Shown here one piece after another: positions 50-39,096 of a DNA stretch of 47,822 nucleotides (the stretch's first letter is position 1; each line of letters begins with the position of its first letter). The stretch spans positions 1-47,822 of the IMG/VR virus record IMGVR_UViG_3300050138_000170; one strand, given 5' to 3'. The notes beneath the pieces are model-generated. The model was given only the letters and a program-made list of their open reading frames with translations, was not told the DNA's origin and searched no databases. Source of the stretch: a virus. The position numbers and the translations under genes are program-made.

Positions 50-271
50 ATGAGCTACATCGCCGGGATCGGCATCCATCCCGAGAGTGGACCCCCGACC
101 GTCCGGGTGCAGGTCGGGCGGCGCACCATCCGTCTGCGGCTGATCGACTGCCCACAGCATGTGCTCCGCGAGTTCACCACGCACCTTCGCGAGGTCGCAT
201 TCGAGGACGAGGACGCGCTGCCGGTGATCGTAACGCAGATTTCACAGAGATTCCCAAAAGCCGCACCGTGA
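50..271 (+). CDS. Hypothetical protein, 73 aa
   Basis: Small soluble protein with no recognised domain. The N-terminal half looks like short beta strands (VRVQVGRRTIRLRLID); the C-terminal half is acidic and helical, with EFTTHLREVAFEDEDALP. GGAG lies about 7 bases before the ATG, in the flank of an insertion-sequence-like hairpin, so the native upstream context may have been replaced. It is the first gene of a co-directional block ending at the terminator near 6.7 kb. Confidence 0.5.
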   Translation: MSYIAGIGIHPESGPPTVRVQVGRRTIRLRLIDCPQHVLREFTTHLREVAFEDEDALPVIVTQISQRFPKAAP

Positions 272-349: not shown

Positions 350-442
350 ATGACAGCAATCAAAGTGGGAGGCGGGTTCCGTCTCGGTGGCTTGTTCCGT
401 CTCGGTGGCGGCTTCCGCCTCGGGGGCCTGTTCCGCATCTAA
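350..442 (+). CDS. Tiny Gly/Phe/Arg hexapeptide-repeat protein, 30 aa
   Basis: ATG at 350 is preceded by GGAGA at 339-343. After MTAIKV the whole protein is four tandem hexapeptides, GGGFRL, GGLFRL, GGGFRL and GGLFRI, alternating GGG and GGL, and it ends right after the fourth. The DNA repeat is visible but codons differ between copies (CGT/CGC, CTC/ATC, GGT/GGC/GGG). The product is cationic and amphipathic with no acidic residue. No family is recognised. A role in membranes, virions or nucleic-acid binding would be guesswork. A hairpin follows at 479-505. Confidence 0.6.
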   Translation: MTAIKVGGGFRLGGLFRLGGGFRLGGLFRI

Positions 443-2023: not shown

Positions 2024-3240
2024 TGGACCGCCAGCTAAAGCAGGCGGCTTTGCAAGTGCCAGGTAGGCTACGCGGCCCTGCGTTCGGCGGCATTACGTTC
2101 GCCCAGCCGAGCGATGTTCCCGGCTGCTGTGGTGTCGGACGCGCCAGCATGCGCGCAACTGATGCACACGAAACGGTCTCGCGTTGGGCGGTTCTTCCGG
2201 TCGATACAGCCGCAGGCCGGACAGGTCTGGGATGTATATCTCGGATCGACCGCGATCAACGGGACTCCAGCAAGTGCGGCTTTGTAGGTCAGAAACGATC
2301 GAAGTTGAGCGAACGACCAACTGGAATGCGCGCGGCGCTGTGGCTTACGAACCGTTATCCGATCGCGGATGCCTTTGAGATCTTCAACGGCGATACCGCG
2401 TCCGGTGTCTTTTGCCTTCCGCACGATGATCTTGCTGATACGATGGTTCACGTTCCGGGCGAACCCCGCTTCCTTGGCGCGACGGGCCTTAAGCAACCGC
2501 CTCGCCGATTTCGTTCCCTTCCGTTGGAGTTTGCGCCGAAGACGGGCGTGGCGCCGTCGCAGGCTGGCGTTGTGGGCACCACAGAACGTCTCGCCATCGC
2601 TGTCGGCCGCGATGTTTCGCAGCCCGAGATCGACGCCGAGGTATTCGGCCGGGTCTCCCATCGGCACGTCGCCAACGTCGACGGTCACGTAGAGGAAGAA
2701 CATGCCGTCGCGGTAGATCAGGTCCGCCTGCCCGCGCGCTCTCTCAAGCGTGGCGGTCTGGTACGCACCGCACACCCACGGCATGATTTGCCGGCCGTCG
2801 TTGGTCAGGATCGAGACCCGATCCGCGCCTTTCCACGACAGGATGCGTTGGTCATAGACGATGGCGCCGTGCGGCCGGAACGTCGGCTGGATGTCCTTAT
2901 CCCGCTTGTATGCCTCAACCACCTTGGCAATGGCGCGCACGGTCATCTGAGCGGCGAGGCCAAAGTCACGCCGGATGCCGTGGTAGGCGAGTTTCTGCAA
3001 TTCGAACTTGTTCGCGCATCGGTTGGCGAACGCGACCTCTGCCAAAGCGTCACACGCCGCGTTGAAACGCTCCATCGTCCGCAGCATGGCATCGGCCTGC
3101 GCGGGCAGCGGCAAGAGCTTCAATTGCATGGTCAGGTGCATGGGAAACTATATAACAAACGCTCAATAAGAAAGCAAGCCCTGTCGTGCTGCGCCCGACC
3201 CGCTATCTGTCGCCTGAAGACGACAGCTTCTCGCGGAGGG
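2024..3240 (-). mobile_element. IS200/IS605-type element carrying only tnpB (IS1341-like)
   Basis: The body is the minus-strand tnpB. The right-end side (2028-2047) forms a hairpin, CCGCC-a-GC TAAA GC-a-GGCGG. The left-end side (3207-3226) forms CTGTCG/CGACAG with a CCTGAAGA loop, and a similar structure precedes the second tnpB. No tnpA transposase is present, so the element could move only if helped in trans. Exact ends and target site cannot be fixed without an empty-site comparison. Confidence 0.65.
2068..3141 (-). CDS. tnpB: TnpB RNA-guided nuclease, OrfB family, 357 aa
   Basis: TnpB proteins are omega-RNA-guided DNA nucleases ancestral to Cas12. RuvC motifs look intact: the Asp of YLGVDLGLRN, the Glu of IAVEDLKG, and the Asp of ASDTTAAGNI. 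The TCPACG and FVCISC pairs form the zinc-binding insert. The family's usual HxRDxNAAxNI is altered to GASDTTAAGNI, but the acidic residue is kept. The omega RNA would be expected to overlap the 3' end and continue to about 2024, which would make phage sequence just below 2024 the resident guide. It lies antisense inside an otherwise plus-strand block. It is not closely similar to the second tnpB by eye. Confidence 0.92.
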   Translation of the reverse strand: MHLTMQLKLLPLPAQADAMLRTMERFNAACDALAEVAFANRCANKFELQKLAYHGIRRDFGLAAQMTVRAIAKVVEAYKRDKDIQPTFRPHGAIVYDQRILSWKGADRVSILTNDGRQIMPWVCGAYQTATLERARGQADLIYRDGMFFLYVTVDVGDVPMGDPAEYLGVDLGLRNIAADSDGETFCGAHNASLRRRHARLRRKLQRKGTKSARRLLKARRAKEAGFARNVNHRISKIIVRKAKDTGRGIAVEDLKGIRDRITVRKPQRRAHSSWSFAQLRSFLTYKAALAGVPLIAVDPRYTSQTCPACGCIDRKNRPTRDRFVCISCAHAGASDTTAAGNIARLGERNAAERRAA

Positions 3241-3581: not shown

Positions 3582-3797
3582 ATGCCTAAAATGCACACCG
3601 TTGCCAACTTCGAAATGGAGGACGCCTCCGCCACGCCGGCCGAGATGCAGAAGCACGAACAGTTGATGCGCTCGCCGGAATACGTCGCTGAGGTGCTGAA
3701 GTCGATCAATGAGATTGCCAATCGGCATGCTCAGCGCGCCGGCCACACAAGGCCGGTCAAGATCACCGGCTCGATCGGTGCGGTTACGCACACGTGA
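3582..3797 (+). CDS. Hypothetical protein, 71 aa
   Basis: Preceded by AAGGAG (3570-3575). Soluble and mostly helical (ATPAEMQKHEQLMRSPEYVAEVLKSINEIA) with a short basic C-terminus. No family recognised. The stop overlaps the GTG start of the holin candidate, so the pair is likely coupled. Confidence 0.55.
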   Translation: MPKMHTVANFEMEDASATPAEMQKHEQLMRSPEYVAEVLKSINEIANRHAQRAGHTRPVKITGSIGAVTHT

Positions 3798-4348
3798 AGA
3801 TCGGACTTCGGATGGCGGGCGCCGTTGCTTTTCTGGTGCCCGCCAGCGCCTTCCTCACGCCCGCCATCGCCTTCGGGCAAAGCGCGGCTCCCGTCGTTGT
3901 CGTGCAGGCACCCTCGACGCTCGTTGACCTGTCCGCCATCGTCCAGCCGATCCTAGCGGTTATTGGTGCCACGATCGCCGGCCTGATCGCCATCTACGTT
4001 CCGAAGGCTATCGCGGCGTTCGAAAAGCGCACCGGCATCGAACTTACCGAAGACCAGCGGAAGACCATGATTGGAGCGGTACAGACAGCGGCAGGGATGG
4101 TCGAGACGAAACTCGACCAGGGCGCGATGCAGCTCGCGCACGTCAATGTGGCGAACCCCCAGATTAGGGCAGAGGCTACGGCCGCCATAAACGCTGTGCC
4201 AGTCGCGGCGGCGGCACTCGGTATGACGGTCGATGGTGTGTCGCGGATGATCGTCGCAGCAACTGATACAGCGACGCATGGGGTCGTGCCGGTTGTCGCG
4301 GGGGCGCCACTTGTGCTACCCTTGGTGCTCGGGCCCGCCGTCGCGTGA
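3794..4348 (+). CDS. Putative holin or signal-anchored membrane protein, 184 aa
   Basis: GTG start overlaps the previous stop (GTGA). An N-terminal hydrophobic segment (MAGAVAFLVPASAFLTPAIAFGQ) looks like a signal sequence, with possible cleavage after AFG. A second membrane segment near residues 45-70 is followed by FEKRTGIELTEDQRKTMIGAVQTAAGMVE, which resembles the soluble helix of LLH-type phage holins (TG-DL-EKQR). The C-terminus is again hydrophobic. The lysin upstream and small membrane genes downstream fit a lysis module, but the length exceeds typical holins and the signal peptide is unusual. Confidence 0.5.
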   Translation: MKIGLRMAGAVAFLVPASAFLTPAIAFGQSAAPVVVVQAPSTLVDLSAIVQPILAVIGATIAGLIAIYVPKAIAAFEKRTGIELTEDQRKTMIGAVQTAAGMVETKLDQGAMQLAHVNVANPQIRAEATAAINAVPVAAAALGMTVDGVSRMIVAATDTATHGVVPVVAGAPLVLPLVLGPAVA

Positions 4349-4467
4349 ACCGTCTCGCGCTCATCCTGTCAGTCGCGGCATTCGCAATGAGCGGCGCGGC
4401 GGTCTGGCGCGAATATCACCGACCTGAGATCATTTGGGCACTCACCCCGGGAGCAACGCAACCATGA
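4345..4467 (+). CDS. Small membrane protein, 40 aa
   Basis: GTG start shares four bases with the previous stop (GTGA), and its own stop overlaps the next ATG (ATGA), so coupling exists on both sides. The product begins MNRLALILSVAAFAMSGAAV, a single membrane segment or signal, followed by a short polar tail WREYHRPEIIWALTPG. Size and position between a holin candidate and a lipoprotein suggest a lysis accessory such as a spanin or holin regulator. The sequence itself does not prove that. Confidence 0.55.
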   Translation: MNRLALILSVAAFAMSGAAVWREYHRPEIIWALTPGATQP

Positions 4468-4982
4468 ACCGAAGATCCATCCTCTACACCACGGCCCTCG
4501 TCGCCCCGGCGCTCGCCCTCGCGGCATGCACTGCAACTACGGCGACGACCTCGACTACTACGGCCCCGACCCCAACGGTGACAACGATCATCGCCACGGC
4601 CCAGGCAGTCGTCTCGTCGCTCAGTATCGCGGCGACGGCGCTCGGCGCCAGCCTGTCCACGTCGGCCCAAACGGCGATTGCCCAGGTGGTAGCGGCAGCA
4701 CAGAGCATCAGTGGCGCGGTAACGGCCGGCGCTACAGCGGTGGCGAGCGCAGCATCAGCCTCCAACATCACCAACCTTGTGATGACCGCCGGAAACATCC
4801 TCCTCGGCCTGCTACAGCTCGTGCCCGGGCTCTCGACAATCATTGGGGTGGTTCAGGACGTGATGACGGTCGCTCCGACGATCATCACCTTGGCCGGGTC
4901 GATCCTTCACCCGACTGTCACCGCGGCGATTGTGCTGCCCTATGACGGCGGGGCGGCCAAGCGCCTTGGTATCATCGCTTGA
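4464..4982 (+). CDS. Putative lipoprotein, Ala/Thr-rich, 172 aa
   Basis: The start at 4464 gives a signal peptide with a lipobox, LALAAC, placing the lipidated Cys near residue 21. A 20-residue Thr-rich linker follows, then long Ala/Ser/Val-rich hydrophobic stretches and a segment NILLGLLQLVPGLSTIIGVVQDVMTV that could insert in a membrane. No catalytic motif. Its position after two membrane genes in the lysis region makes an outer-membrane lysis or exclusion role possible, not shown. Confidence 0.6.
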   Translation: MNRRSILYTTALVAPALALAACTATTATTSTTTAPTPTVTTIIATAQAVVSSLSIAATALGASLSTSAQTAIAQVVAAAQSISGAVTAGATAVASAASASNITNLVMTAGNILLGLLQLVPGLSTIIGVVQDVMTVAPTIITLAGSILHPTVTAAIVLPYDGGAAKRLGIIA

Positions 4983-7158: not shown

Positions 7159-7333
7159 CGGTCTGGTTCTTTACTTCGACCAAACTTATTCGGAGCAGTG
7201 ACGCCATTTCCTCTAACATCTCAGCGCGAGCAATGAACAGATTTGCCTCACGCCGAAGTATCGTTGCCCTGCCCTCCAAATCAGCAGAAAACCTTTTCAG
7301 GTCATAATCACCCTTGAATTCATATCTGGGCAT
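7151..7333 (-). CDS. Hypothetical helical protein, 60 aa
   Basis: Start overlaps the stop of the large upstream gene by one base. The sequence after MPRYEFKGDYDLKRFSADLEGR is one long amphipathic helix, ATILRREANLFIARAEMLEE, likely a coiled-coil dimer. Tight packing in the operon supports it being real. Confidence 0.55.
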   Translation of the reverse strand: MPRYEFKGDYDLKRFSADLEGRATILRREANLFIARAEMLEEMASLLRISLVEVKNQTDG

Positions 7334-9291
7334 CAGGCATCGCCTTGCTGAATTTTGGCATCATCTTCGCGATGTTCTGTGGCCGCTTTGTGCGCCCTCA
7401 GTTTTTCCCGCTGTGCCATGAACGCGTCGCGCAGAGGCTCGATCATCGCGGCCTTGTTCGACCTGGTCATCCGCGAGGCAAACCCCTTCACGGCCATGCC
7501 ATTCTGGAATTCAACAAGCTGATCTTCCGATGTGCAGGACAGCATGTCAGCGATCAGGTTTTGTTGCGACCGGATATCATCGGCATCGCTCGGGCTTGCC
7601 GCGGCGGTCGGTGCGGGAGACACAGGATCCTGTGATGCGGGGGCAATCAACCCAAGTAATTCTGCTGGCGCATCAACCCCGAGCGTCTTGCACTGCTCCC
7701 GAACCGCCTTGATGCAGAGCGCGCGGAATGACGCCGGAATTTTTCGCAGCTCGGCCATATTCAGTGCGACAAAGTCCTGATAGGTGAGCAGAGTCAGCGC
7801 ATCGACCTCGACCTTGAATTCTTTCAGATGCAACGCGTTCATCTGTTTGCCGCGGTCCATCTTAACCTCAACCACGATCGCGCGGGGAGGGTCATAGGCC
7901 AGTATGCCGGCCTCTTCCACATGCTTGTGCTCGGGACCGACTGACATCAGACCATCCAGTAGATGGGAAGCCTCTATGCTCGCTCCTTTTGCGTCCTGAA
8001 TGCCATCCGCGTTCTGCTCCCAGAGCGCATCCCAATCGTCTAAATCAACCATTACTGCCTCGGTGAAGACTCTCACGAACACAAGCGGATCTGAGTAGAC
8101 AATGGGGCTCATCGGATCGCCGTTCCGATCAAGAAGCATCGCCTCGAACGCCGGGGCGGCGACCGCAGGTTCACGCTCAGCCTCGGCGCGCGACACAGGC
8201 GCGGTTGCCAGTGTGGAGTCTATTAGCGGCCTGCCGGCGGCCTCTCCCTCCCAACGATCGGTCGGAATTTCGTCCAGGTGGTCAGGTGCATCTTTCGATC
8301 GCTGGGCTGTCGCGCGGTCGCGGTCTTGTGCCTTCTGGACGTCGGCTGCGCTCGGCGCTACGGGCGATGCCGGCGCTTCCTTTGCGGCAGCTTTCCGCGT
8401 CGTCTGTCGCGGCTGCACTGCTGACGCCGTTGCCGCGGCGTGTTGCGTCTCGACGGCATTCCATGTCGCGCTGGCGCCAGTCTCCGGTTCAAACCAATCA
8501 GAGGCCGCGCTCATCTCATCCGTCAGAGACGCATAAATCTTGCTCAATTGCACAATGTGAGCCGGCCGGATCGCCTCCATGCGGCGTTGAATACGCTTCT
8601 CCAACATTTGGCGCGTCACGCCCATCCGATCGAATGCCTCGACCATTTTCAGTACCGCGTCCGGCGAGGTGTCTGCGTTGGCATGAATCGTGCGCTCGCA
8701 TTCCTGGATAGCCATCTCGATAACGTCGCCAGGGATCACGGCCAGAAGGACGGCGCGCTTGCGACGCTGGCCAAGATTGAAAATTATTTCGTAGATGTCG
8801 CGTTCTTCTTTGAGGGGATGACCTCCCTGTTTTGTGTCGCGCCAGTGGCGAACCTGGAACTGCCGTTCGTCGTAATACCCGGACTCCAGATCCCAGGCAT
8901 AGGCGACGCATTCTGAGTAGCTAGGTCCCCTGCTCAGTTCCTTAATCCCTGAGGCTAGATTCCCCCATCGTTGCGCGACCGCCTCGGCCAGGCGAATTGA
9001 CGGCCCGGTGATATCCTGGCCTCCGCGCGCGTAGCTGTAGAGCGCTTTGGCGGCCAAGCTCTCCCGCGCACAATCCCGGATGATCTGATCCACTGCCCGG
9101 CCAGGATCGCGTGGCATCTGCCGGGCCATGATCATGCGGGCCTGGACCTCGGCGATGGCCCTCTGCTGCTCCACGGATATCAGCCCTTGCCAGCTGCTTA
9201 CGGTGGCAAGTTCCTTCCCATTGCCAAACGGGTTTTTCCCGTCCTGGAAGGCTCTCAAGCGCGGGGCTTCGGGGCGTTCGACGTCACTCAT
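7333..9291 (-). CDS. Putative phage recombination-associated protein, 652 aa
   Basis: The first 270 residues match, from memory, a widespread phage family with the signature YARGGQDITGPSIRLAEAVAQRWGN and, later, KRIQRRMEAIRPAHIVQLSKIYASL. It is usually found with recombination genes and sometimes annotated as a single-strand annealing or RecT-like protein. An Ala-rich linker follows, then a second domain with DPPRAIVVEVKMDRGKQMN. The start at 9291 follows GGAG six bases upstream, just past the CRISPR array. Reading further upstream would translate CRISPR repeats and is rejected. Residues LLDRNGDP near 386-393 are encoded by DNA that nearly matches spacer 1 of the array. Confidence 0.6.
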   Translation of the reverse strand: MSDVERPEAPRLRAFQDGKNPFGNGKELATVSSWQGLISVEQQRAIAEVQARMIMARQMPRDPGRAVDQIIRDCARESLAAKALYSYARGGQDITGPSIRLAEAVAQRWGNLASGIKELSRGPSYSECVAYAWDLESGYYDERQFQVRHWRDTKQGGHPLKEERDIYEIIFNLGQRRKRAVLLAVIPGDVIEMAIQECERTIHANADTSPDAVLKMVEAFDRMGVTRQMLEKRIQRRMEAIRPAHIVQLSKIYASLTDEMSAASDWFEPETGASATWNAVETQHAAATASAVQPRQTTRKAAAKEAPASPVAPSAADVQKAQDRDRATAQRSKDAPDHLDEIPTDRWEGEAAGRPLIDSTLATAPVSRAEAEREPAVAAPAFEAMLLDRNGDPMSPIVYSDPLVFVRVFTEAVMVDLDDWDALWEQNADGIQDAKGASIEASHLLDGLMSVGPEHKHVEEAGILAYDPPRAIVVEVKMDRGKQMNALHLKEFKVEVDALTLLTYQDFVALNMAELRKIPASFRALCIKAVREQCKTLGVDAPAELLGLIAPASQDPVSPAPTAAASPSDADDIRSQQNLIADMLSCTSEDQLVEFQNGMAVKGFASRMTRSNKAAMIEPLRDAFMAQREKLRAHKAATEHREDDAKIQQGDA

Positions 9292-9321
9292 AGGGGTCTC
9301 CACGGTAATAGCGGTTTGGTT

Positions 9322-9533
9322 CGGTTCATCCCCGCGTGTGCGGGGAACGCTCGGAACCCGGATCTCCGTTCCGATCAAGAAGCGGTTCATCCCCGCGTGT
9401 GCGGGGAACGCCGGCATGGCAGGCCGGGCTCGATGGGGAGCTGCGGTTCATCCCCGCGTGTGCGGGGAACGCACTTCCGGCTGTTCCGGTTCGGCCTCTC
9501 CGAACGGTTCATCCCCGCACATGCGGGGAACGC
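9322..9533 (-). CRISPR. Type I-E mini-CRISPR array: 4 repeats, 3 spacers
   Basis: Repeats of 29 bp lie at 9322-9350, 9383-9411, 9444-9472 and 9505-9533; spacers of exactly 32 bp lie between them. The plus strand reads CGGTTCATCCCCGCG... to GCGGGGAACGC, the classic type I-E repeat, with palindrome CCCCGC/GCGGGG. The fourth repeat differs only in the loop (ACAT for GTGT). Comparison with the E. coli repeat puts crRNA on the minus strand, the same direction as the surrounding operon, with an ATGAACCG 5' handle. No cas genes or obvious leader are present. All spacers resemble genes of this phage: 1 the gene at 7333-9291, 2 the gene at 11328-11948, 3 the gene at 9448-9789. Host Cas proteins would be required. 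Confidence 0.95.
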
Positions 9534-11452: not shown

Positions 11453-11948
11453 TGGACCGAGCGACGACGACATAAAGGGATGGCTCGCTGAGGCCACCGA
11501 GATCGAGACCGCGATGGCACGCGTTCGCCAAAAAATGTCCACGCTCAAAAAGGACGTAGAGGGCGGCGCGGGCGACTGGAAAGCGCTGAAGGCCGCGCTC
11601 GCCAGCACGAAACTTTCCAAGGCCGAGGCGATAGCCAATCTCGAAGCCGCCGTCCGTTACCACAAGGCAATAAGTGTCCGCGTGTCGTTCGACCCGGACG
11701 GACAGGGTACATTTGCCGATCTCGTTGAGGAGACGGTGAACGGGTTCTCTGGCGCAGTCGATGAAAAGCTGTCCGCCGCACGGGCAAAAAGCGACGGCTT
11801 CAATTCGAGTCGCCTGGGTGGGACACGCGAGGATAATCCGTTCAATCCTGGCTCCTTGGAATACGCGGCATGGCAGGAAGGACTGGATCAGGAGGTCCGC
11901 GATCGCGGCACGACGATCTTAGCCGAGACCGGCGAAGTCATTCACTGA
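11328..11948 (+). CDS. Hypothetical helical phage protein, 206 aa
   Basis: ATG 11328 follows AGGAA by about eight bases. The N-terminus is Lys/Pro-rich (MAKSAPKKAADQTSPAKPRGRPPG) with an AT-hook-like KPRGRPPG, followed by a charged helical body. Residues about 180-189, AWQEGLDQEV, are encoded by 11866-11897, which matches spacer 2 of the CRISPR array at 24 of 32 bases; the spacer would encode AWQAGLDGEL. No enzymatic motif is visible. It is followed within 20 bases by the resolvase gene. Confidence 0.6.
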   Translation: MAKSAPKKAADQTSPAKPRGRPPGSKNQSVYAGPLASAPETNGPSDDDIKGWLAEATEIETAMARVRQKMSTLKKDVEGGAGDWKALKAALASTKLSKAEAIANLEAAVRYHKAISVRVSFDPDGQGTFADLVEETVNGFSGAVDEKLSAARAKSDGFNSSRLGGTREDNPFNPGSLEYAAWQEGLDQEVRDRGTTILAETGEVIH

Positions 11949-11965
11949 TGGAGGGAGCCATCGCT

Positions 11966-12475
11966 ATGAGCGACGGGGATATCTGGCTCAGCGTTGATCC
12001 TGGCCTGTCCGGCGCACTCAGTTGGGTGACCGGAGCCGGGCATCTGATCGAAGTCGTGGACATGCCGGTGATCGAAGTTGTCACCAATGGCAAGAAGCGG
12101 CGCAAGATCGACGCAGCCGGGCTCGTCGCACTCATGGGCAAGCGGCCGGTGACTGGGATGATTGTCGAGGCGGTGATAGCGATGCCTCGACGCGGCCCAG
12201 ATGGATTGCCGGTGACCATGGGCGCGACATCGTCGAACAGCGCAGCCCGCGGCGCCGGCATCCTGGAAGGGATCGCCGCGGCCCTGGGTCTCCCCTACAG
12301 CGAAGTTATGCCGCATGTCTGGAAGCGTCGCGCAAGCGTGCCGAAGGACAAAGGCGGTGCGCGGTTGATGGCACAGCGAACGTGGCCCGGCGCGTTTGCT
12401 CTGTTCGCGAGGGTGAAAGACGATGGGCGGGCCGAAAGTGCGCTGCTCGGGAGATGGGCCGCGCTCGGCAGATAG
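11966..12475 (+). CDS. RuvC-like Holliday junction resolvase, 169 aa
   Basis: Resolves four-way DNA junctions formed during phage recombination and before packaging. The RNase-H-like fold is indicated by LSVDPGLSGALSWV (first Asp), MIVEAVIAMP (Glu), and the C-terminal KDDGRAESALLGRWA (final Asp and helix). GGAGGGAG lies seven bases before ATG 11966, favouring it over ATG 11948. The length matches RuvC-type phage resolvases. It sits upstream of the helicase and is followed by a hairpin terminator. Confidence 0.8.
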   Translation: MSDGDIWLSVDPGLSGALSWVTGAGHLIEVVDMPVIEVVTNGKKRRKIDAAGLVALMGKRPVTGMIVEAVIAMPRRGPDGLPVTMGATSSNSAARGAGILEGIAAALGLPYSEVMPHVWKRRASVPKDKGGARLMAQRTWPGAFALFARVKDDGRAESALLGRWAALGR

Positions 12476-12484
12476 TAAAACCAA

Positions 12485-12508
12485 AACCCCGCCTTGACGG
12501 GCGGGGTT
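12485..12508 (+). terminator. Hairpin, probable terminator
   Basis: A nine-base-pair stem, AACCCCGCC (12485-12493) with GGCGGGGTT (12500-12508), and a TTGACG loop. No T-run follows. The stem resembles the IS605-type hairpin at 21950-21969, so a relic of an element end is possible. Confidence 0.5.
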
Positions 12509-12686
12509 GGCCAGGACTAACCTGAATAGATCGCGAAAGGGGCGGCAAACCCCGATCCCGGTAGATGGCTGGGAGGACAGCCAGGCGATTTACGCCGACC
12601 CGAATATATCTGTTTCGGTAAAAATCGCAATAGCTGCCTCCGAACCATCATATGTTTTTTTTGTGTGGAACAGGAGGAATAGAGTG

Positions 12687-13145
12687 ATGAATGATATCTT
12701 ATACTACGAACTCACCAGTGGCCGCAGGCTGCGGCAAGACGACCTAACCCCTGAAAATCTTGCGCTCGTCCGGTTGGATTCTGGGAACAGTGGCTTCCTG
12801 AAAAATCTTATCAAATGCCTACAGGGAAACACTGAGCACCGGGCGGCGCTGATTGAGGAAGCGCAAGAGGTCATTGACATGGCCCTACGCCTTATCGACC
12901 AGACGATGGCGTGGATCGATTGGGAGACGGCTTCTCCCTCTGGCCATAGGCCACCTATCGACATATTTGATCAGGACAGACGCCGGTTTCTCGGCGCCTA
13001 TCGGGACTTTCTGTCTGAAGAAATCTTCTCAGATGGGTTGAAAGCGGAGACGATACGCTCCACGGAGAATGCTGTTCAGCAGATAGGATATTGCTGCGGA
13101 CCCGCAAATAGTAAAATGGTACCGGAGGAGAACTCTAATGGCTGA
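12687..13145 (+). CDS. Hypothetical protein, 152 aa
   Basis: The start at ATG 12687 is set by a strong AGGAGG site at 12672-12677. The frame stays open upstream to TTG 12507, giving 212 residues, but without a ribosome site. The product begins MNDILYYELTSGRRLRQDDLTPENLALVRL and is helical and acidic, with a Trp-rich centre (MAWIDWETA). The stop overlaps the helicase start by eight bases, suggesting a helicase-linked role such as a loader; no sequence motif supports that. Confidence 0.55.
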   Translation: MNDILYYELTSGRRLRQDDLTPENLALVRLDSGNSGFLKNLIKCLQGNTEHRAALIEEAQEVIDMALRLIDQTMAWIDWETASPSGHRPPIDIFDQDRRRFLGAYRDFLSEEIFSDGLKAETIRSTENAVQQIGYCCGPANSKMVPEENSNG

Positions 13146-14664
13146 GCCGAGATCGCTATCACAGGAGGCATTTAGAGCCCCACGCGACATATTCCCCGGC
13201 CTTAGTCTACGACACCCACCCCAAAATATCCAGGCCGAGCAAGGACTTCTTGGGGCTCTTCTCGCCAGCAATGCGGCCTATGCTAAAGTCGCGGACTTCC
13301 TTGAACCGAGGCACTTCGCTGATCCGCTTCACGGTCAAATTTACGGACGTATAGCTGAGCGCATTCTGGGCGGCCGAATAGCGAACGCCGTCGCGATGAA
13401 GCTGGATTTTGAGGTCGATCCATTTCCTGGTATGTTGATATCAGTTGACACCTATCTTGCTGATCTTCTCATCAGTAATCCAGGCATTATTGTCGTCAGC
13501 GAATACGGACGCGCGATCCTGGACGCGTGGCAACGCCGTCGCCTTGTCGAGATTGGCGAGGCCGTCGTCAACAATGCGTTCGGCGCCGATCCTGGTCTGG
13601 ATGCTGATGGACAAATCCAGGCGGCCGAGCAATCGATCGCCTCCCTGCGGCAGGTAGGTCAGCGCGGGGACCGTATGTCCAGCGCGGGGAGTCTGGTGAG
13701 CGGAGCCATTGCCCAGGCCGAGGCTGTCTATCAGGGCGTTCCCTCCCGCCGGGTGATGACAGGGATGCCCACCATCGACCAGGCCATACGATTACTACCC
13801 GGAACGCTAACGCTGCTGGCGGGGCCTCCAGGCTCCGGCAAGACGGCGCTCGCAACCCAGATCGGGAAGTCAATCGCGAAGAGGCTTTATGCGGACCGGC
13901 CATCGTTTAACCAGCCGGGCGTAGCGATCTTTAGCCTGGAAATGTCAGGCGAAGAACTTGGCGAACGAATCTTGGCCCATGAGGCTGAAATCGCACTGGA
14001 TCACCTCCAGGATGGCCGCCTCGACGACGCCACTGTAGAGAACCTGATGCGAGCCGAGACCGCGCTGCGCCATGTGCCGCTACGAATATGGGATTGCACC
14101 GAGACGCCTCTGCGCATGATCCCGCGCAAGATCCGATTACATCTGTCGAATCGTCCGGAGTCGCTGGTGATAGTCGATCATCTGCACGTTGACGGCGCGG
14201 ATGGCGATAAGGGGCGTCAGGGAGAAAATCCGAGCGTTAACCAACTCGCCGGCGCGTTCAAGACGCTTGCCCGTGCCATGGATATCCCGATTATCCTGTT
14301 GGCGCATATGAGCAGGCCGCCGAAGGGCGTCGAAGTACGGCGCCCGACGCTATTTGACGTAAAGTATGGCGGAGAGAGCGCGGCGGACATCGTGATGTTC
14401 CCCCACCGACCGATCATGTTCATGGACACAAAGCCTCCGGTGATGAAGGCCAAGGAAACAGACGATGAGTTCCGTGGCCCCAATGGCACATTCACGCGCT
14501 GGCACAACGCGCTTGAGGGGGCACGTGACCTCGCTGAGATTGTGGTGGTCAAGCAGCGAAGCGGGCGCCCGGGGGTCTATCGGATGCGATTCCATGGCAG
14601 TACCACATCGTTTTCCGAGTGGTCTACTGAACTCGATGTGGACGACCCGCAGTGGGAAGAGTAG
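13138..14664 (+). CDS. DnaB-type replicative DNA helicase, 508 aa
   Basis: N-terminal DnaB domain signature PPQNIQAEQGLLGALLAS near residues 22-42, then a linker and the RecA-like ATPase domain. Walker A is GPPGSGKTALA near residue 228; GVAIFSLEMSGEELGERIL is the classic DnaB motif; LVIVDHLHVDG is Walker B; IILLAHMSRPP follows. The C-terminal VVKQRSGRPG matches the DnaB arginine-finger region. It unwinds DNA at the phage fork and probably cooperates with the HTH proteins at 14792 and 15133. No intein or frameshift. Confidence 0.9.
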   Translation: MAEPRSLSQEAFRAPRDIFPGLSLRHPPQNIQAEQGLLGALLASNAAYAKVADFLEPRHFADPLHGQIYGRIAERILGGRIANAVAMKLDFEVDPFPGMLISVDTYLADLLISNPGIIVVSEYGRAILDAWQRRRLVEIGEAVVNNAFGADPGLDADGQIQAAEQSIASLRQVGQRGDRMSSAGSLVSGAIAQAEAVYQGVPSRRVMTGMPTIDQAIRLLPGTLTLLAGPPGSGKTALATQIGKSIAKRLYADRPSFNQPGVAIFSLEMSGEELGERILAHEAEIALDHLQDGRLDDATVENLMRAETALRHVPLRIWDCTETPLRMIPRKIRLHLSNRPESLVIVDHLHVDGADGDKGRQGENPSVNQLAGAFKTLARAMDIPIILLAHMSRPPKGVEVRRPTLFDVKYGGESAADIVMFPHRPIMFMDTKPPVMKAKETDDEFRGPNGTFTRWHNALEGARDLAEIVVVKQRSGRPGVYRMRFHGSTTSFSEWSTELDVDDPQWEE

Positions 14665-14673
14665 AAATGGAAA

Positions 14674-14695
14674 CGCCAGCCTTGGCGGGCTGGCG
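14674..14695 (+). terminator. Hairpin after the helicase gene
   Basis: CGCCAGCC (14674-14681) pairs with GGCTGGCG (14688-14695) around a TTGGCG loop. It is not followed by a T-run, so termination may be partial. Confidence 0.5.
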
Positions 14696-14707
14696 CTGAA
14701 TTAACAT

Positions 14708-14771
14708 GGAGTCCGTGGCGCGGGCCACAAGGCGGCTAGCAACTGCTCATGTAGGCCCCCGCGCGGACTCC
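14708..14771 (+). other. Long inverted repeat / structured RNA candidate
   Basis: GGAGTCCG (14708-14715) pairs perfectly with CGGACTCC (14764-14771). Inside it CGCGGGCC pairs with GGCC(CC)CGCG apart from a two-base bulge. The result is a long stem with a loop of about 27 bases. It fills the gap between helicase and the next gene, so it could be a 5'-UTR regulator, a small RNA or a protein-binding site for replication. Confidence 0.5.
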
Positions 14772-14791: not shown

Positions 14792-15136
14792 ATGAGCAAC
14801 GAGGTTCAGGCTTTTGCCATGATTCCGGTCCGGGTAATCAAGGATTTATCTCTGTCCCACGCGGAGTTCCGAGCCTTTGCCGCCGTTGCCATGCATCGGC
14901 ATAATAAGCTCGGCTGGGCGTTCCCAAGTCACGCAACGTTAGCTACGGATCTCGGGTTCATGCCTGGGCCAGGAGGAGCTGAACGTGTTCGGCAACTCCT
15001 GTGGCCTTCAATCGAGAAAGGCTACCTGGAACGAATATCCGGCTCCGGCAGAACACGCTCTCGTTACCGGGTGATCCATGACCAACCCGCTCCAACACTG
15101 AGAACCTCCCTCGATGATGGAGTGGATTGGTCATGA
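14792..15136 (+). CDS. Helix-turn-helix protein, replication-associated, 114 aa
   Basis: Winged-helix signature: LSHAEFRAFAAVAMHRHNKLGWAFPSHATLATDLGF, then a wing-like GSGRTRSRYRVI. The layout (growth of the cell cycle 'W-x-F-P-S-x-x-T-L-A' motif) is like the HTH_36 domains of phage replication initiators. It probably binds DNA near the origin or helps load helicase. Its stop overlaps the start of the longer related protein (ATGA). It is a partial paralogue of that neighbour in fold. Confidence 0.65.
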   Translation: MSNEVQAFAMIPVRVIKDLSLSHAEFRAFAAVAMHRHNKLGWAFPSHATLATDLGFMPGPGGAERVRQLLWPSIEKGYLERISGSGRTRSRYRVIHDQPAPTLRTSLDDGVDWS

Positions 15137-16107
15137 GTTGGAAAGCAATGATTTGGACCCATAAACTCAGGGTCCAACTATCTTCCGTTGAATATCGGAC
15201 GCTGATGGTCCTCGCAGAACATGCCCACGAAGATGGAAGAGGGGCATATCCGGCGGTAATGACGATCGCCGAACATGCTGAAATGAGCGTTCGTAGCGTA
15301 CAGCGTTCACTGAGGGTCCTTGAAAATCGGGATGTGATATCTCTTCAGAACCCGGCGACACACAGCAGATCCGCAGTCTGGCGATTAAATATGAGCCTGG
15401 ATATTGTCGCGTCTGTCACCCCTCCTGCATTAGAACAGGGGTGCCAACTGGTCCATTTAGGGGTGCCAACTGGTCCATTTAGAGGTGCCAGCGTGGCATC
15501 CGAACCAAAGATAGAACCTAAGATAGAACCTAAGCAGCAAGATAGAATACCAAAAGCGGCTGCGAAGAGAACCCATATCGCGGTAGACTGGACCCCTGGG
15601 CCAGCAGATCGGGAGTATGCCGATAACCTTGGCATTCCAGAGTCTCAGGTCAGCGCTTTCGTCGATTACCATCTTGCGAACGGGACGCTCATGGCGTCCT
15701 GGCCTGCTGCCTGGAGGACCTGGTGCCGTAATTGTACGCGGTTCGGGACAGCGACCGGGAAGCCCAATAAGTCTCAGGAAGAGATTGCGTTCGACGGAAA
15801 CGATGCGTGGGGAGCCGAGGCATGGGCCGCCTCACTGCCAGACGCAAAAACAGGCAAGCTACAGGATGAAACCGAAGTGCTGACTCTGGGTGGCATCGCG
15901 GCAGCGTGGACGGCGCGAGACTGCTGTGAGGCGGCAGGGTTCCCCGCAAGCTGGCGCGGCGACCTGTCACCGGTAGCCCATTGGCTACGTGATCGCCTGG
16001 AGCCGGATGAGGTTATCGAGGCGATCCGGACGAGCACGAAGCCGAACAAGCCAGTGTTGACATACTTCGATCGACGCGTCCGAGAGAAAGCGAGTGTGCG
16101 ATTATGA
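15133..16107 (+). CDS. Putative replication initiator with HTH_36-like domain, 324 aa
   Basis: The start at ATG 15133 overlaps the previous stop. Residues 10-75 form a winged helix: LSSVEYRTLMVLAEHAHEDGRGAYP, then MTIAEHAEMSVRSVQRSLRVLENRDVI. A linker encoded by direct DNA repeats follows (QLVHLGVPTGPFRG), then a C-terminal domain beginning WTPGPADREYADNLGIPESQV, ending in a region with repeated Trp. Iteron-like repeats inside the gene are like those in lambda O. Position after a DnaB helicase fits an initiator that recruits it. Confidence 0.65.
   Translation: MSWKAMIWTHKLRVQLSSVEYRTLMVLAEHAHEDGRGAYPAVMTIAEHAEMSVRSVQRSLRVLENRDVISLQNPATHSRSAVWRLNMSLDIVASVTPPALEQGCQLVHLGVPTGPFRGASVASEPKIEPKIEPKQQDRIPKAAAKRTHIAVDWTPGPADREYADNLGIPESQVSAFVDYHLANGTLMASWPAAWRTWCRNCTRFGTATGKPNKSQEEIAFDGNDAWGAEAWAASLPDAKTGKLQDETEVLTLGGIAAAWTARDCCEAAGFPASWRGDLSPVAHWLRDRLEPDEVIEAIRTSTKPNKPVLTYFDRRVREKASVRL
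15438..15552. other. Candidate replication origin: iterons plus A+T-rich repeats
   Basis: Two copies of GGGGTGCCAACTGGTCCATT start at 15438 and 15460, with a partial third (GAGGTGCCA) at 15482. The period is 22 bp, two helical turns, so binding sites would face the same side of the helix. Downstream at 15508, 15520 and 15539 are AAGATAGAACCT, the same again, and AAGATAGAATACC, an A/T-richer patch that could melt. This is the lambda ori plan: iterons within the initiator gene beside an unwinding element. Confidence 0.55.
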
Positions 16108-19843: not shown

Positions 19844-20023
19844 ATGCGTACCCCGATAAACCTGTTTCCCATGGGAATGCCGTACCACGACCGCCGCACG
19901 GCGTGGGAAGACCGCACGTCCCGGTACCATTGGCGGCGAGGGTTTATCTGTGGGGTCGTCAGTTCGGCCGGAGCGCTTTTCTTTGGTGGGCTCCTCGGCT
20001 GTATATTCGCGTATCTGGCGTGA
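19844..20023 (+). CDS. Small membrane protein, 59 aa (cassette copy 1)
   Basis: Strong AGGAGG site at 19829-19834. The N-terminus MRTPINLFPMGMPYHDRRTAW is unique to this copy. From RTSRYHWRRG onward it is identical to the gene at 20303, with a membrane helix FICGVVSSAGALFFGGLLGCIFAYLA preceded by basic residues. Its stop overlaps the next GTG start. It is one half of a duplicated two-gene cassette. Confidence 0.7.
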   Translation: MRTPINLFPMGMPYHDRRTAWEDRTSRYHWRRGFICGVVSSAGALFFGGLLGCIFAYLA

Positions 20024-20130
20024 AAGCTCCACCGCCGCCCGGTCGCCTGGACTCGTACCATGACGCGGTCGAGCTGGCGCGCCGCGGCATCGGTCTGTTT
20101 GCTCAATCAGCACTGAAGGAAATCACGTAA
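20020..20130 (+). CDS. Small protein, 36 aa (cassette copy 1)
   Basis: GTG 20020 overlaps the previous stop (GTGA). The first 18 codons (VKAPPPPGRLDSYHDAVE) match the gene at 20527; after that the two diverge. This version ends with LARRGIGLFAQSALKEIT and has no membrane segment, so it is probably a shortened copy. Its stop overlaps the next ATG. Confidence 0.5.
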   Translation: MKAPPPPGRLDSYHDAVELARRGIGLFAQSALKEIT

Positions 20131-20306: not shown

Positions 20307-20530
20307 TGCAAAACAGTCGAGACATGCTGCGCCGGCTTGTGGACGTTGCCTGGCAGGCGGCGACACAATCCACCGAGGTTCCATCAACGAGATTGGCTGA
20401 CAAGATGATCAACCAGGCCCGCACGTCCCGGTACCATTGGCGGCGAGGGTTTATCTGTGGGGTCGTCAGTTCGGCCGGAGCGCTTTTCTTTGGTGGGCTC
20501 CTCGGCTGTATATTCGCGTATCTGGCGTGA
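20303..20530 (+). CDS. Small membrane protein, 75 aa (cassette copy 2)
   Basis: MMQNSRDMLRRLVDVAWQAATQSTEVPSTRLADK is a helical N-terminus different from copy 1; the shared part begins at ARTSRYHWRRG and includes the membrane helix. The shared C-terminus with an unlike N-terminus indicates domain replacement through the repeat. Confidence 0.7.
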   Translation: MMQNSRDMLRRLVDVAWQAATQSTEVPSTRLADKMINQARTSRYHWRRGFICGVVSSAGALFFGGLLGCIFAYLA

Positions 20531-20703
20531 AAGCTCCACCGCCGCCGGGTCGCCTGGACTCGTACCATGACGCGGTCGAGCGCGCGCGGCACGATTTCGA
20601 GATGTACCGCCAGAGGCGCAGGATACGTAATCGGCTCATAATCGTGCTGGCGATATGGTTTACGGTCATTGGAGCGCTGGCCTTCTTTACGCTCGGCGGG
20701 TGA
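20527..20703 (+). CDS. Small membrane protein, 58 aa (cassette copy 2)
   Basis: GTG 20527 overlaps the previous stop. VKAPPPPGRLDSYHDAVE matches copy 1; then ERARHDFEMYRQRRRIRN leads to a membrane helix LIIVLAIWFTVIGALAFFTLGG. The stop TGA at 20701-20703 is also the first bases of the second TnpB element (TGAACTACTCC), so the native gene may have been longer. Confidence 0.65.
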   Translation: MKAPPPPGRLDSYHDAVERARHDFEMYRQRRRIRNRLIIVLAIWFTVIGALAFFTLGG

Positions 20704-35664: not shown

Positions 35665-38600
35665 ATGAGTGCCACGCTCGCCCCACCGCCGCCGCCGAAC
35701 GGCATATCCTCTATCGCGGCCCTCGCCGGCGGGACCGGTGCGTCCCCGCCCATCTCCTCTGAGCCTGATGATCATCCCAATCCAGAGTTACGCGATCAAC
35801 TGACGCGCTGGGTTGGCATGAAGAACATCGCGGCCGATCCCGACGACAATATGGAACCGAACCCGGAGATCGGTGACGATATCGCGCGCATCGCGGCCCG
35901 GGTGCGCTCTGACTATGACATCGACGAACTGAGCCGGGCCGACTGGCGCGAGAAATATCGCAAGTGGCTGGACTGCGCTTTGCAGGTCACTGAGCACAAA
36001 ACCTATCCATGGCCTGAGGCGTGCTTTTCACTCGATACCGATGTTCTGACCGATTCGGGTTGGAAGCCAGTCGCCGAGATCGCCATCGGTGAAAGGGTCC
36101 TCAGTCGCGCGCCATCCGGTGCCGCGGCATTCTATCCGGTGACCGAGCGCCATCGGTTCACGGCTCTGTCAATGGTGCATTTCACCGGTAAGAGCATCGA
36201 CCTGATGGTGACGCCGAACCACAGGATGTTGGTCGAGAGCAAGTTCGGCAAGCGGAAGAAGCAGCATTTCATCGAGGCGGGGCGGTTCTTGGAGGAGCGT
36301 CTGGCATTTCGATACATCCCGCTTACGTCGCAGTGGACGGGCGACCCCCTGTCGGAGATCCATGGGGTAAGTGCGGAGGCGTACGCGCGATTCCTGGGTT
36401 GGTACATCTCCGAGGGCTCGGCCTTCACTGGACACAATACCCACACATTGAAGGATGGAACTTTCAGGGATTATGGAAAGAGTCCGAGCAGCTTCGCTAT
36501 CGCGCAGAGCCAGACCGCCAACCCCGTAAAGTTCGAACGCCTTCGGCACGACATCGAAGCCTGTAGGTTCACCTGTAAAGCCACGCCCACCGGTTACATC
36601 GTTCATGCCAGGTCGATGCCCAATGCTGCGAAAGACGAACTTAGATCGCTTGGTTTATCACACCAGAAACATGTGCCTGATTACCTGCTGACAGCGTCCG
36701 TTCCGGTACTCAAGGCCCTCCTTGATGGCCTGATGGCCGGTGATGGCTGCATTCGGGAACGCAATGGAAAGGAGGAAAGCTGGTCCTATTCTACTGTTTC
36801 CCGCCGGTTGTCCGACCAGATGCAGGACATATGTCAGAAGATTGGCTGGCGCGCGACCGTGGCGGAAAGAGCGGCGGTCGTCGGAGGGGTAATCAACGGG
36901 CGGCAAATCACCGGGGCTCAAACTTGCTACCTGATCGCGATCAACCGCAAGTCCCGTATCCAGGTCGTTAAAATGGACCGGCAAGCGGTCTTTGGACCAT
37001 GCGAGGTCGCCTGCGTCACCGTCGAACCGCACCACACACTCTATGTGCGCCGCAACGGCAAAGCCCTCTGGTGCGGCAACTCCAATGTCATATATCCGCT
37101 GATGACGACGGCGGCCATCCAATTTGCCGCCCGCGCTTACCCGGCGATCATCCGAGATCGCAACGTCGTCAAGGGCACCGTCATTGGCGACGACAAAGGC
37201 GTGATCAATCCGGCGTTTGTGCATCTGCTACAAGCCGCGCACGCGCATGATCAGGCGATGGCGCAGCAGCAACAGCAGGGAGGGCAGCCACCGCCGGGCG
37301 GCCCGCCTCCTGGCGCTCAACCCCCAGGCCCTGGTCCTATGCAGCAGTCAGGACCGGCCGCGTCGCCTCAGCCGGGTCCCGGAATGCCGCCGCCAGGACA
37401 GGCCGGCCCCGGTATGGGGCTCCCGGCGGGGATGCCGCGGCAGTGGCTGGAAGAGCCCGGGGCAAAGCAAAAGCGAGCGCTCCGCATCGGCCGGCACATG
37501 AGCTGGCAGCTTCTGTTCGAACAAGAGGAATGGGAACCGCAGACCGACACGCTTCTGGTGGCACTCCCGATCGTCGGCACGTATTTCCGCAAGTCCTACT
37601 ACGATCAAAGCCTCGGCCGGAACGTGAGCGAGACTGTCGACGCACTGGCGCTATGCGTGAATTATTACGCCAAGAGCTTTGAGACATCGCCTCGAAAAAC
37701 AGAGTCGATCCGGATGTACCCGGACGAAATCGAGACAGCGATCCGCTCCGGTCTGTTCATTGATTGGGACGGTGACGGTGCGCTGGCCTATGGCCATGAC
37801 AGCGGCGTCACCATGGAGGACGAGAAGCGGCGCGATCCCAATAGCCAGCAGGACGAGGACGCGGCGGTCACCTTCCTGGAACAGCATCGGCGCTGGGATC
37901 TGGATGGCGATGGCTATCCCGAGCCGTACATCATCACCGTGGCGCGCGACAGCGGCAAACTCGCGCGCATCGTCGCCGGCTTCGAAATGGATGGGGTGCA
38001 TTTCAACCGGAAGGGCCAGGTTCGGAAAATCGACGTCGTCGCTGTCTATACGAAATACGGGTTCATCCCGAACCCCGACTCCAAGGTCTACGATCTTGGC
38101 TTCGGGCATCTCCTGTTTCCGATCAACGAAGCGGTGAACACCACCATAAATATGATGATCGACTCCGGGCACCTTCAGATCGTCGGCGGCGGTTTCATCG
38201 GGTCCGGGCTGTCGATCAATACCGGCACGGTCCGGTTCACCCATGGCGAGTACAAGCCGGTCAACACGTTCGGCGGGAACATCCGCGACAACATTTACCA
38301 GATACCGTTCCCTGGCCCCAACCCGATCCTGATGCAGTTGCTGCAATTCCTGATCGAATCTGGCGAACGTGTCGCCTCCGTGAAGGACGTCATGGTCGGC
38401 GACATGCCGGGCGACAACACCTCAGGCATCACGACGCTGGCAGTGATCGAGCAGGGCCTGAAGGTGTTCTCCGCGATCTACAAGCGGATCCACCGCTCGC
38501 TCGGCTACGAGTTCAAAAAACAATACCAGCTGAACCGAAAGTATAGCCGTAAGGAATCGCAGTACCAGGAAGGCGGCGACTGGAAGACGATCACCAGGGA

Positions 38601-39096
38601 AGATTACGAAAAAGGCGCCGGCGTCGAGCCGATCAGTGATCCGCAGATGGTTACCGACATGCAACGCCTCGGCAGGGCACAGTTCCTGCTGACCTTCAAG
38701 GATGATCCTCGCGTCAAGGGGGAGAAAATCATTCTCGACGCGTTCACCGCGGCGATGATCCCGGACGCTGAAAGCTACATGACAGAGGCGCCGGCGCAGC
38801 CTGATCCAAAGATTCTGCTGAAAAGCCGCGAGCTGGATATCCGCGAGAAACGGGAGATGATCGAACTGATGTTGCGCCACGAACATGACAAGGCGCTGAT
38901 CATCGGGGAGATATGCAAGGCCGAATTGGCGTTGGCTCAGGCGAGGAAGCTTGACAATGACGCGCAACTGGGGTGGGTGGAGCAACATATTGAACACCTG
39001 AAAGCACAGGTCGATGCCATTGCCACCCTATCGCCCCCGCCAGCCGGTCCCACCGCCGATGCCGGGGGAGGAGCGAGTCCCCCCGCTTCTCCGTGA
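35665..39096 (+). CDS. Portal protein with in-frame intein, 1143 aa precursor
   Basis: The dodecameric portal is the DNA channel of the capsid. Without the intein the protein is about 790 residues. The flanking extein KTYPWPEA/SNVIYPLMTTAAIQFAARAYPAI matches the conserved PWPGASNVKYPL-type portal motif of this group. A long Pro/Gln/Gly insertion (AMAQQQQQGGQPPPGGPPPG...) at residues ~530-590 is unusual. Later motifs FGHLLFPINEAVNTTINMMIDSGHLQIVGGG and MPGDNTSGITTLAVIEQGLKVFSAIYKRI fit the same portal type. The C-terminus overlaps the next gene by about 80 bases. Confidence 0.85.
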   Translation: MSATLAPPPPPNGISSIAALAGGTGASPPISSEPDDHPNPELRDQLTRWVGMKNIAADPDDNMEPNPEIGDDIARIAARVRSDYDIDELSRADWREKYRKWLDCALQVTEHKTYPWPEACFSLDTDVLTDSGWKPVAEIAIGERVLSRAPSGAAAFYPVTERHRFTALSMVHFTGKSIDLMVTPNHRMLVESKFGKRKKQHFIEAGRFLEERLAFRYIPLTSQWTGDPLSEIHGVSAEAYARFLGWYISEGSAFTGHNTHTLKDGTFRDYGKSPSSFAIAQSQTANPVKFERLRHDIEACRFTCKATPTGYIVHARSMPNAAKDELRSLGLSHQKHVPDYLLTASVPVLKALLDGLMAGDGCIRERNGKEESWSYSTVSRRLSDQMQDICQKIGWRATVAERAAVVGGVINGRQITGAQTCYLIAINRKSRIQVVKMDRQAVFGPCEVACVTVEPHHTLYVRRNGKALWCGNSNVIYPLMTTAAIQFAARAYPAIIRDRNVVKGTVIGDDKGVINPAFVHLLQAAHAHDQAMAQQQQQGGQPPPGGPPPGAQPPGPGPMQQSGPAASPQPGPGMPPPGQAGPGMGLPAGMPRQWLEEPGAKQKRALRIGRHMSWQLLFEQEEWEPQTDTLLVALPIVGTYFRKSYYDQSLGRNVSETVDALALCVNYYAKSFETSPRKTESIRMYPDEIETAIRSGLFIDWDGDGALAYGHDSGVTMEDEKRRDPNSQQDEDAAVTFLEQHRRWDLDGDGYPEPYIITVARDSGKLARIVAGFEMDGVHFNRKGQVRKIDVVAVYTKYGFIPNPDSKVYDLGFGHLLFPINEAVNTTINMMIDSGHLQIVGGGFIGSGLSINTGTVRFTHGEYKPVNTFGGNIRDNIYQIPFPGPNPILMQLLQFLIESGERVASVKDVMVGDMPGDNTSGITTLAVIEQGLKVFSAIYKRIHRSLGYEFKKQYQLNRKYSRKESQYQEGGDWKTITREDYEKGAGVEPISDPQMVTDMQRLGRAQFLLTFKDDPRVKGEKIILDAFTAAMIPDAESYMTEAPAQPDPKILLKSRELDIREKREMIELMLRHEHDKALIIGEICKAELALAQARKLDNDAQLGWVEQHIEHLKAQVDAIATLSPPPAGPTADAGGGASPPASP
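36022..37080 (+). other. Intein, 353 aa, with LAGLIDADG endonuclease
   Basis: Begins CFSLDTDVLTDSGWKPVAEI (Cys1), has TPNHRML (block B) at intein residues 64-70, FLGWYISEG (LAGLIDADG helix 1) at 124-132, ALLDGLMAGDG (helix 2) at 232-242, and ends VEPHHTLYVRRNGKALWCGN before Ser. The penultimate residue is Gly rather than the usual His. Inserted at the conserved portal motif, which gives a target that competitors must keep. Splicing is expected but not shown. Confidence 0.85.

Follow-up and report, generated by a model that had tools for sequence, protein, structure and literature searches.

A short tandem-repeat reading frame upstream of a phage endolysin gene, probably a young orphan gene

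Results

In the DNA of a phage (the window, that is, the whole stretch of 47,822 b that was analysed), we find a plus-strand open reading frame (ORF) of 30 codons at 350-442 that is probably a translated, young gene selected for its peptide, because the internal repetition of that peptide ranks first among the ORFs compared, the underlying DNA array is unmatched in shuffled sequence, and the changes between repeat copies are silent specifically in this frame. The peptide, MTAIKVGGGFRLGGLFRLGGGFRLGGLFRI (30 aa, TAA stop), begins with MTAIKV and continues with four hexapeptides, GGGFRL and GGLFRL followed by GGGFRL and GGLFRI. An earlier note on this DNA had described such a 30-residue product with its own ribosome site, and its coordinates, frame and sequence proved exact; a Shine-Dalgarno-like GGAG, as read from the sequence, lies at 339-342, 7 nt before the ATG at 350, and the other in-frame starts (ATG 344 and TTG 326) fit this site less well. 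The codons of the ORF include ones that are common in the main genes of the phage as well as CGT, GGT and TTG, which are less common.

The repeat had also been called perfect, which needs correction: residue 3 of the hexapeptide alternates between G and L and the final residue is I, so that the real repeat unit is a doublet of 36 bp and 12 aa. The first doublet (368-403) and the second (404-439) are identical at 29 of 36 bases. Of the seven differences, five affect the third position of a codon and two the first; six are silent in the frame of the ORF, the exception being a change from Leu to Ile. Silent changes in the other five frames number 0, 0, 1, 2 and 3.5 of 7, and random change would leave 29-33% silent (P about 0.003-0.006, for a post hoc test on a sample of seven events that was prompted by the observation itself). 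This pattern, confined to the ORF frame, supports the suggestion that silent codon variation between units reflects selection on the peptide. We found no support for speaking of a "mature part" of the peptide, a term that implies cleavage. A competing plus-strand ORF at 268-474 was rejected, as it lacks a ribosome site, and the plus frames other than that of the 30-codon ORF leave just 0 or 2 of the seven changes silent.

At the DNA level, the array spans 376-435 with a period of 18. Its TRF score, 78, is exceeded by one array of the window only, and by none that has a period divisible by three. In 60 dinucleotide-shuffled versions of the window, arrays scoring at least 78 were absent (largest score 73, mean of the maxima 47.7). 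The window together with five related records holds 3549 ORFs of at least 20 aa; ranked by internal peptide repetition, these place the ORF at 350-442 first, a rank shared solely by its copy in a second record of the phage. We also considered structural RNA as the source of the repeat and ruled it out, because the ORF RNA is no more stably folded than shuffled versions of it (z 0.59). The highest TRF score of the window (101) belongs to a 22-nt array at 15437-15490, whose period is not a multiple of three; it is contained in ORF 15127-16107, along with a 12-nt array at 15502-15534.

The window phage encodes a DnaB-like helicase, a terminase, a portal and a major head protein. The second record (G001, IMGVR_UViG_3300050190_000052; 58,285 b) overlaps the window at 99.98-100% identity and carries an identical ORF (locus L004). 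It runs about 19 kb beyond the right end of the window and then returns to window position 48, so that the full genome would measure about 67 kb. The identity with G001 starts at base 48 of the window; positions 1-47 are unmatched in that record, and four 20-mers taken from them were found in none of six related records; this end is either a strain variant or an assembly artefact. A 170-bp direct repeat (19912-20081 and 20419-20588, 98% identical) probably broke the assemblies, because G001 and G002, another related record, both break there.

Beyond this phage, the ORF was not recovered. The search with the terminase matched seven loci, and the motif is absent from five of the six terminase-matched records searched (L073 was left out); two of these relatives (G002 and G003) stop short of the region, two (G005 and G006) are fragments, and G004 (TerL 74%) alone covers the corresponding region. 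G004 has the same replication and structural genes as the window phage, and its matches flank the corresponding stretch (its 11594-14735), inside which there is neither such an ORF nor the DUF6065 neighbour described below. The ORF is likewise absent near the endolysin of L188, which is 63% identical to that of the window phage. The 21 loci matched with the endolysin hold 730 plus-strand ORFs of 18-120 aa, among which there is no other comparable repeat peptide, and the two neighbouring proteins (50-271 and 527-1291) retrieved the same phage only. The peptide has no match in Pfam, PHROGs, NCBIfam or PADLOC at E up to 0.1, only matches at E 7 among PDB sequences, and none by tblastn against 50,697 phage records, a search in which the low-complexity filter may mask the query.

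Four degenerate DNA patterns matched 7, 54, 20 and 12 stretches of a viral collection, and one pattern matched 84 stretches of a genome collection, where 80 loci were examined; these five patterns yielded one true relative, the second copy in the same phage. Of the 158 motif-bearing loci, 8 have a short ORF (at most 80 aa) that starts ahead of the motif and has a tetramer resembling a ribosome site, and only at L004 is the short ORF built of the repeat. The search for short GGxFRL ORFs that the earlier note proposed did retrieve this second copy, and it retrieved no homologue elsewhere in the 158 loci. The literature containing the strings GGGFRL, GGLFRL, GGGFRLGG or FRLGGG, judged by title and the start of the abstract, held nothing related, and that on small glycine-rich phage proteins yielded nothing relevant. 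As far as the searched collections reach, the gene is an orphan of one phage lineage. The same note had looked to conservation of the frame in related phages, which the region of G004 and the surroundings of the L188 endolysin do not show; we read this absence as the mark of a young orphan and not as a refutation, because the silent pattern within the repeat is independent of relatives.

The region around the ORF is variable and contains further orphan ORFs; upstream of the ORF is a gene for a 73-aa protein of no known family (50-271, plus strand). Between the ORF and the next gene there is a hairpin with a 12-bp stem at about 478-508 (36-66 nt past the stop codon; fold of 440-530, -36.6 kcal/mol, z -2.4). 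It was not called by the terminator scan and its T tail is poor; it would be a terminator or a processing site. Downstream on the same strand lie genes for a DUF6065 protein (527-1291, 254 aa; PF19541, E 6.6e-7) and an SLT-like endolysin (1288-1803; phrog_3108, E 1.9e-33), the latter with 40-45% identity in the best 15 of 105 matching phage records, some of them annotated as lysozyme or endolysin. The endolysin gene begins 845 bp downstream of the ORF, from which it is separated by the DUF6065 gene and the hairpin. Further along, ORF 3794-4348 has two hydrophobic stretches and PHROGs matches to families of unknown function only, and could be a holin. ORF 4434-4982 (the same frame was searched as 4446-4979) we take to be lipoprotein-like from its lipobox. 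Among the 10 proteins of the region, which include this ORF, there were no PHROGs spanin matches.

The earlier note rightly called the peptide cationic, with a charge of about +4.5 at pH 7 and no acidic residue; its pI is about 12 and its GRAVY 0.68. The strand-type hydrophobic moment at 180 degrees is 0.64, a value reached by 11 of 5000 residue shuffles, and the helical moment at 100 degrees is 0.12, equalled or exceeded by 3682 of 5000. Because 144 of the 720 orders of the hexad alternate faces as well as the actual one, given the repeat, we treat this alternation as a property of the peptide and not as evidence. AlphaFold, run on the single sequence, gave a low-confidence model (pLDDT 63, pTM 0.14) with no secondary structure and no helix. 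Glycine makes up 10 of the 30 residues, which disfavours stable strands, and no signal sequence is apparent. The charge, the lack of acidic residues and the pI are compatible with the membrane-active, structural or antimicrobial role that had been suggested.

Discussion

We tentatively favour, at a probability of about 0.3, a young translated gene for a cationic membrane peptide of the beta-strand type that acts at lysis beside the endolysin, where we infer both the translation and the membrane action. The gene probably grew by duplication of unit and doublet, as the comparison of its two halves supports: an 18-bp unit would have been duplicated and diverged to the G/L doublet, and the resulting 36-bp doublet would then have been duplicated, in an order that we infer, after which silent changes and one change from Leu to Ile alone would have been retained. 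Since the hexad is of even length, an extended strand would turn Phe and Leu/Ile/Val to one side, opposite a face formed by Arg and the alternate Leu. Such a peptide may insert as an amphipathic beta-strand or beta-sheet in the anionic bacterial membrane and, late in infection, act next to the endolysin to weaken the envelope, doing work of the disruptin kind through an extended strand rather than a helix. Against this reading, G004 and L188 manage without the peptide, and it has no homologues save the second copy. In addition, ORF 4434-4982, being lipoprotein-like, could serve as a lysis protein of the outer membrane, in which case the phage may need no substitute. The reading is also weakened by the unremarkable alternation of faces given the repeat, the lack of secondary structure in the AlphaFold model, the many glycines, the lack of an apparent signal sequence, and the DUF6065 gene and hairpin that separate the ORF from the endolysin.

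PMC12819732 reports that phages without spanins can use small antimicrobial-type peptides, the disruptins, whose archetype, a peptide of phage phiKT, is a short amphipathic helix with an effect like that of LL-37; it also notes that the diversity of disruptins complicates gene prediction and that it is open whether spanin-less phages encode them. Like disruptins, the peptide described here is small, cationic (30 aa, about +4.5) and encoded near a lysis gene, but unlike the phiKT disruptin, as far as that source describes it, it has no helical moment and carries 10 glycines and a tandem repeat; we do not file it as a disruptin, because it lacks the helical amphipathicity of the archetype. A closer likeness in build is offered by [KIGAKI]3-type amphipathic beta-strand peptides, hexad repeats described as membrane-active in PMC9495826. 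Both these and [KL]n share with the phage peptide an even-length cationic and hydrophobic repeat, a hexad in the case of KIGAKI, that sorts faces in an extended strand; they are synthetic and lysine-based (PMC9495826), whereas the phage peptide is natural, Arg- and Phe-based and glycine-rich.

Within the endolysin regions of related records, a glycine-rich membrane-type peptide precedes the endolysin of L188. The glycine-rich small membrane proteins near the endolysin in L188 and G001, which we take to be DUF3309-like, resemble our peptide in being short and rich in glycine and aromatic residues, but they come from separate genes, contain clear hydrophobic stretches of the membrane type and lack a hexapeptide repeat. 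A different hexapeptide architecture, the left-handed beta-helix, has the consensus [LIV]-G-x-x-small-x, in which position 5 calls for a small residue. We rejected this assignment because Phe occupies that position in all four units; there was no Pfam match up to E 0.1.

Because the alternation of faces is not evidence and AlphaFold gave no structure, two other readings follow the membrane peptide closely in our ranking. The second is that the repeat was born of slippage and does nothing, its open frame being coincidental or a recent relic, as might be expected of an array that is found in one phage lineage and absent from its relatives, given that G/C-rich repeats with open frames often arise and that the silent test counts seven changes and was suggested by the data themselves. 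However, six of these seven changes are silent solely in the frame that has an ATG and a GGAG, the repeat is the best of 3549 ORFs, and 60 shuffles produced no equally strong array. A further and very improbable view is that the minus strand is the true coding strand, specifying an Ala/Glu/Thr linker, AEQAPEAEAATETEQATETEPA, of which GGxFRL would be the antisense shadow. Similar motifs at other loci are mostly portions of longer frames, and several GGxF(R/S)L repeats lie antisense to linkers of Glu, Ala, Pro and Lys; exactly this holds at L055 (GGLFRL opposite EPEKPA) and at L181 and L187 (GGRFSL opposite EAPAKA), and motif matches at other loci should not be taken as homology. In the window, however, none of ATG, GTG and TTG occurs ahead of the repeat in the minus frame at 242-661, which also overlaps two genes of the plus strand; the best minus frame leaves only 3.5 of the seven changes silent. 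If any frame here is coding, it is the plus frame of the ORF. Should the peptide prove inert, the locus would serve as a warning that frames of the GGxFR type are common antisense shadows.

Third in the ranking, and also possible, is an accessory peptide that stays inside the cell, where its four GGxFRL copies would bind a single host or phage protein with avidity. Short motifs present in several copies make binding multivalent, and the constraint on the sequence of the repeated units, the lack of an apparent export signal and the location among other orphan ORFs of a variable region all agree with such a binder, but no partner, homologue or known motif emerged from Pfam, PHROGs, NCBIfam or PADLOC. 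We consider it improbable that the ORF encodes a leader peptide whose translation controls the hairpin at 478-508 and hence the expression of the DUF6065 protein and the endolysin. The layout is right, in that a strong 12-bp hairpin follows a short ORF that has a ribosome site of its own and precedes a gene; yet we can point to no competing antiterminator fold, the T tail of the hairpin is poor, the scan did not call a terminator there, and leader peptides need no conserved glycine or phenylalanine, whereas here the whole repeat is conserved.

To return to the membrane peptide, its boldest form, a newborn gene made by six-codon tandem duplication that is the extended-strand counterpart of the disruptins and ruptures the outer membrane at lysis, seems to us unlikely. 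A repeat peptide diverging silently in a frame-specific manner would offer a concrete and cheap test case for the small outer-membrane-breaking peptides of phages, which are diverse and hard to predict, and would show a gene shortly after its birth by duplication.

Other features of the phage genome

Four near-identical CRISPR-type repeats (CGGTTCATCCCCGCGTGTGCGGGGAACGC, plus strand), which we presume to be type I-E-like, lie at 9322-9532 with a 61-nt period and three spacers, and overlap the 5' end of the minus-strand ORF 7333-9417. This element is read as a phage-borne mini-CRISPR array; virus-borne mini-CRISPR arrays are reportedly already in print (PMC6858448). The minus strand at 2068-3141 encodes a 357-aa RNA-guided TnpB/Cas12f-like nuclease (NCBIfam guided_TnpB, 1.6e-47; PADLOC Cas12f, 6.4e-50). 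Finally, the portal ORF at 35665-39096 (1143 aa) aligns to G004 only at residues 1-120, 469-522 and 593-1119, with similar aligned blocks in G005 and G006, and the insert of about 350 residues between portal residues 120 and 469 is a candidate intein.
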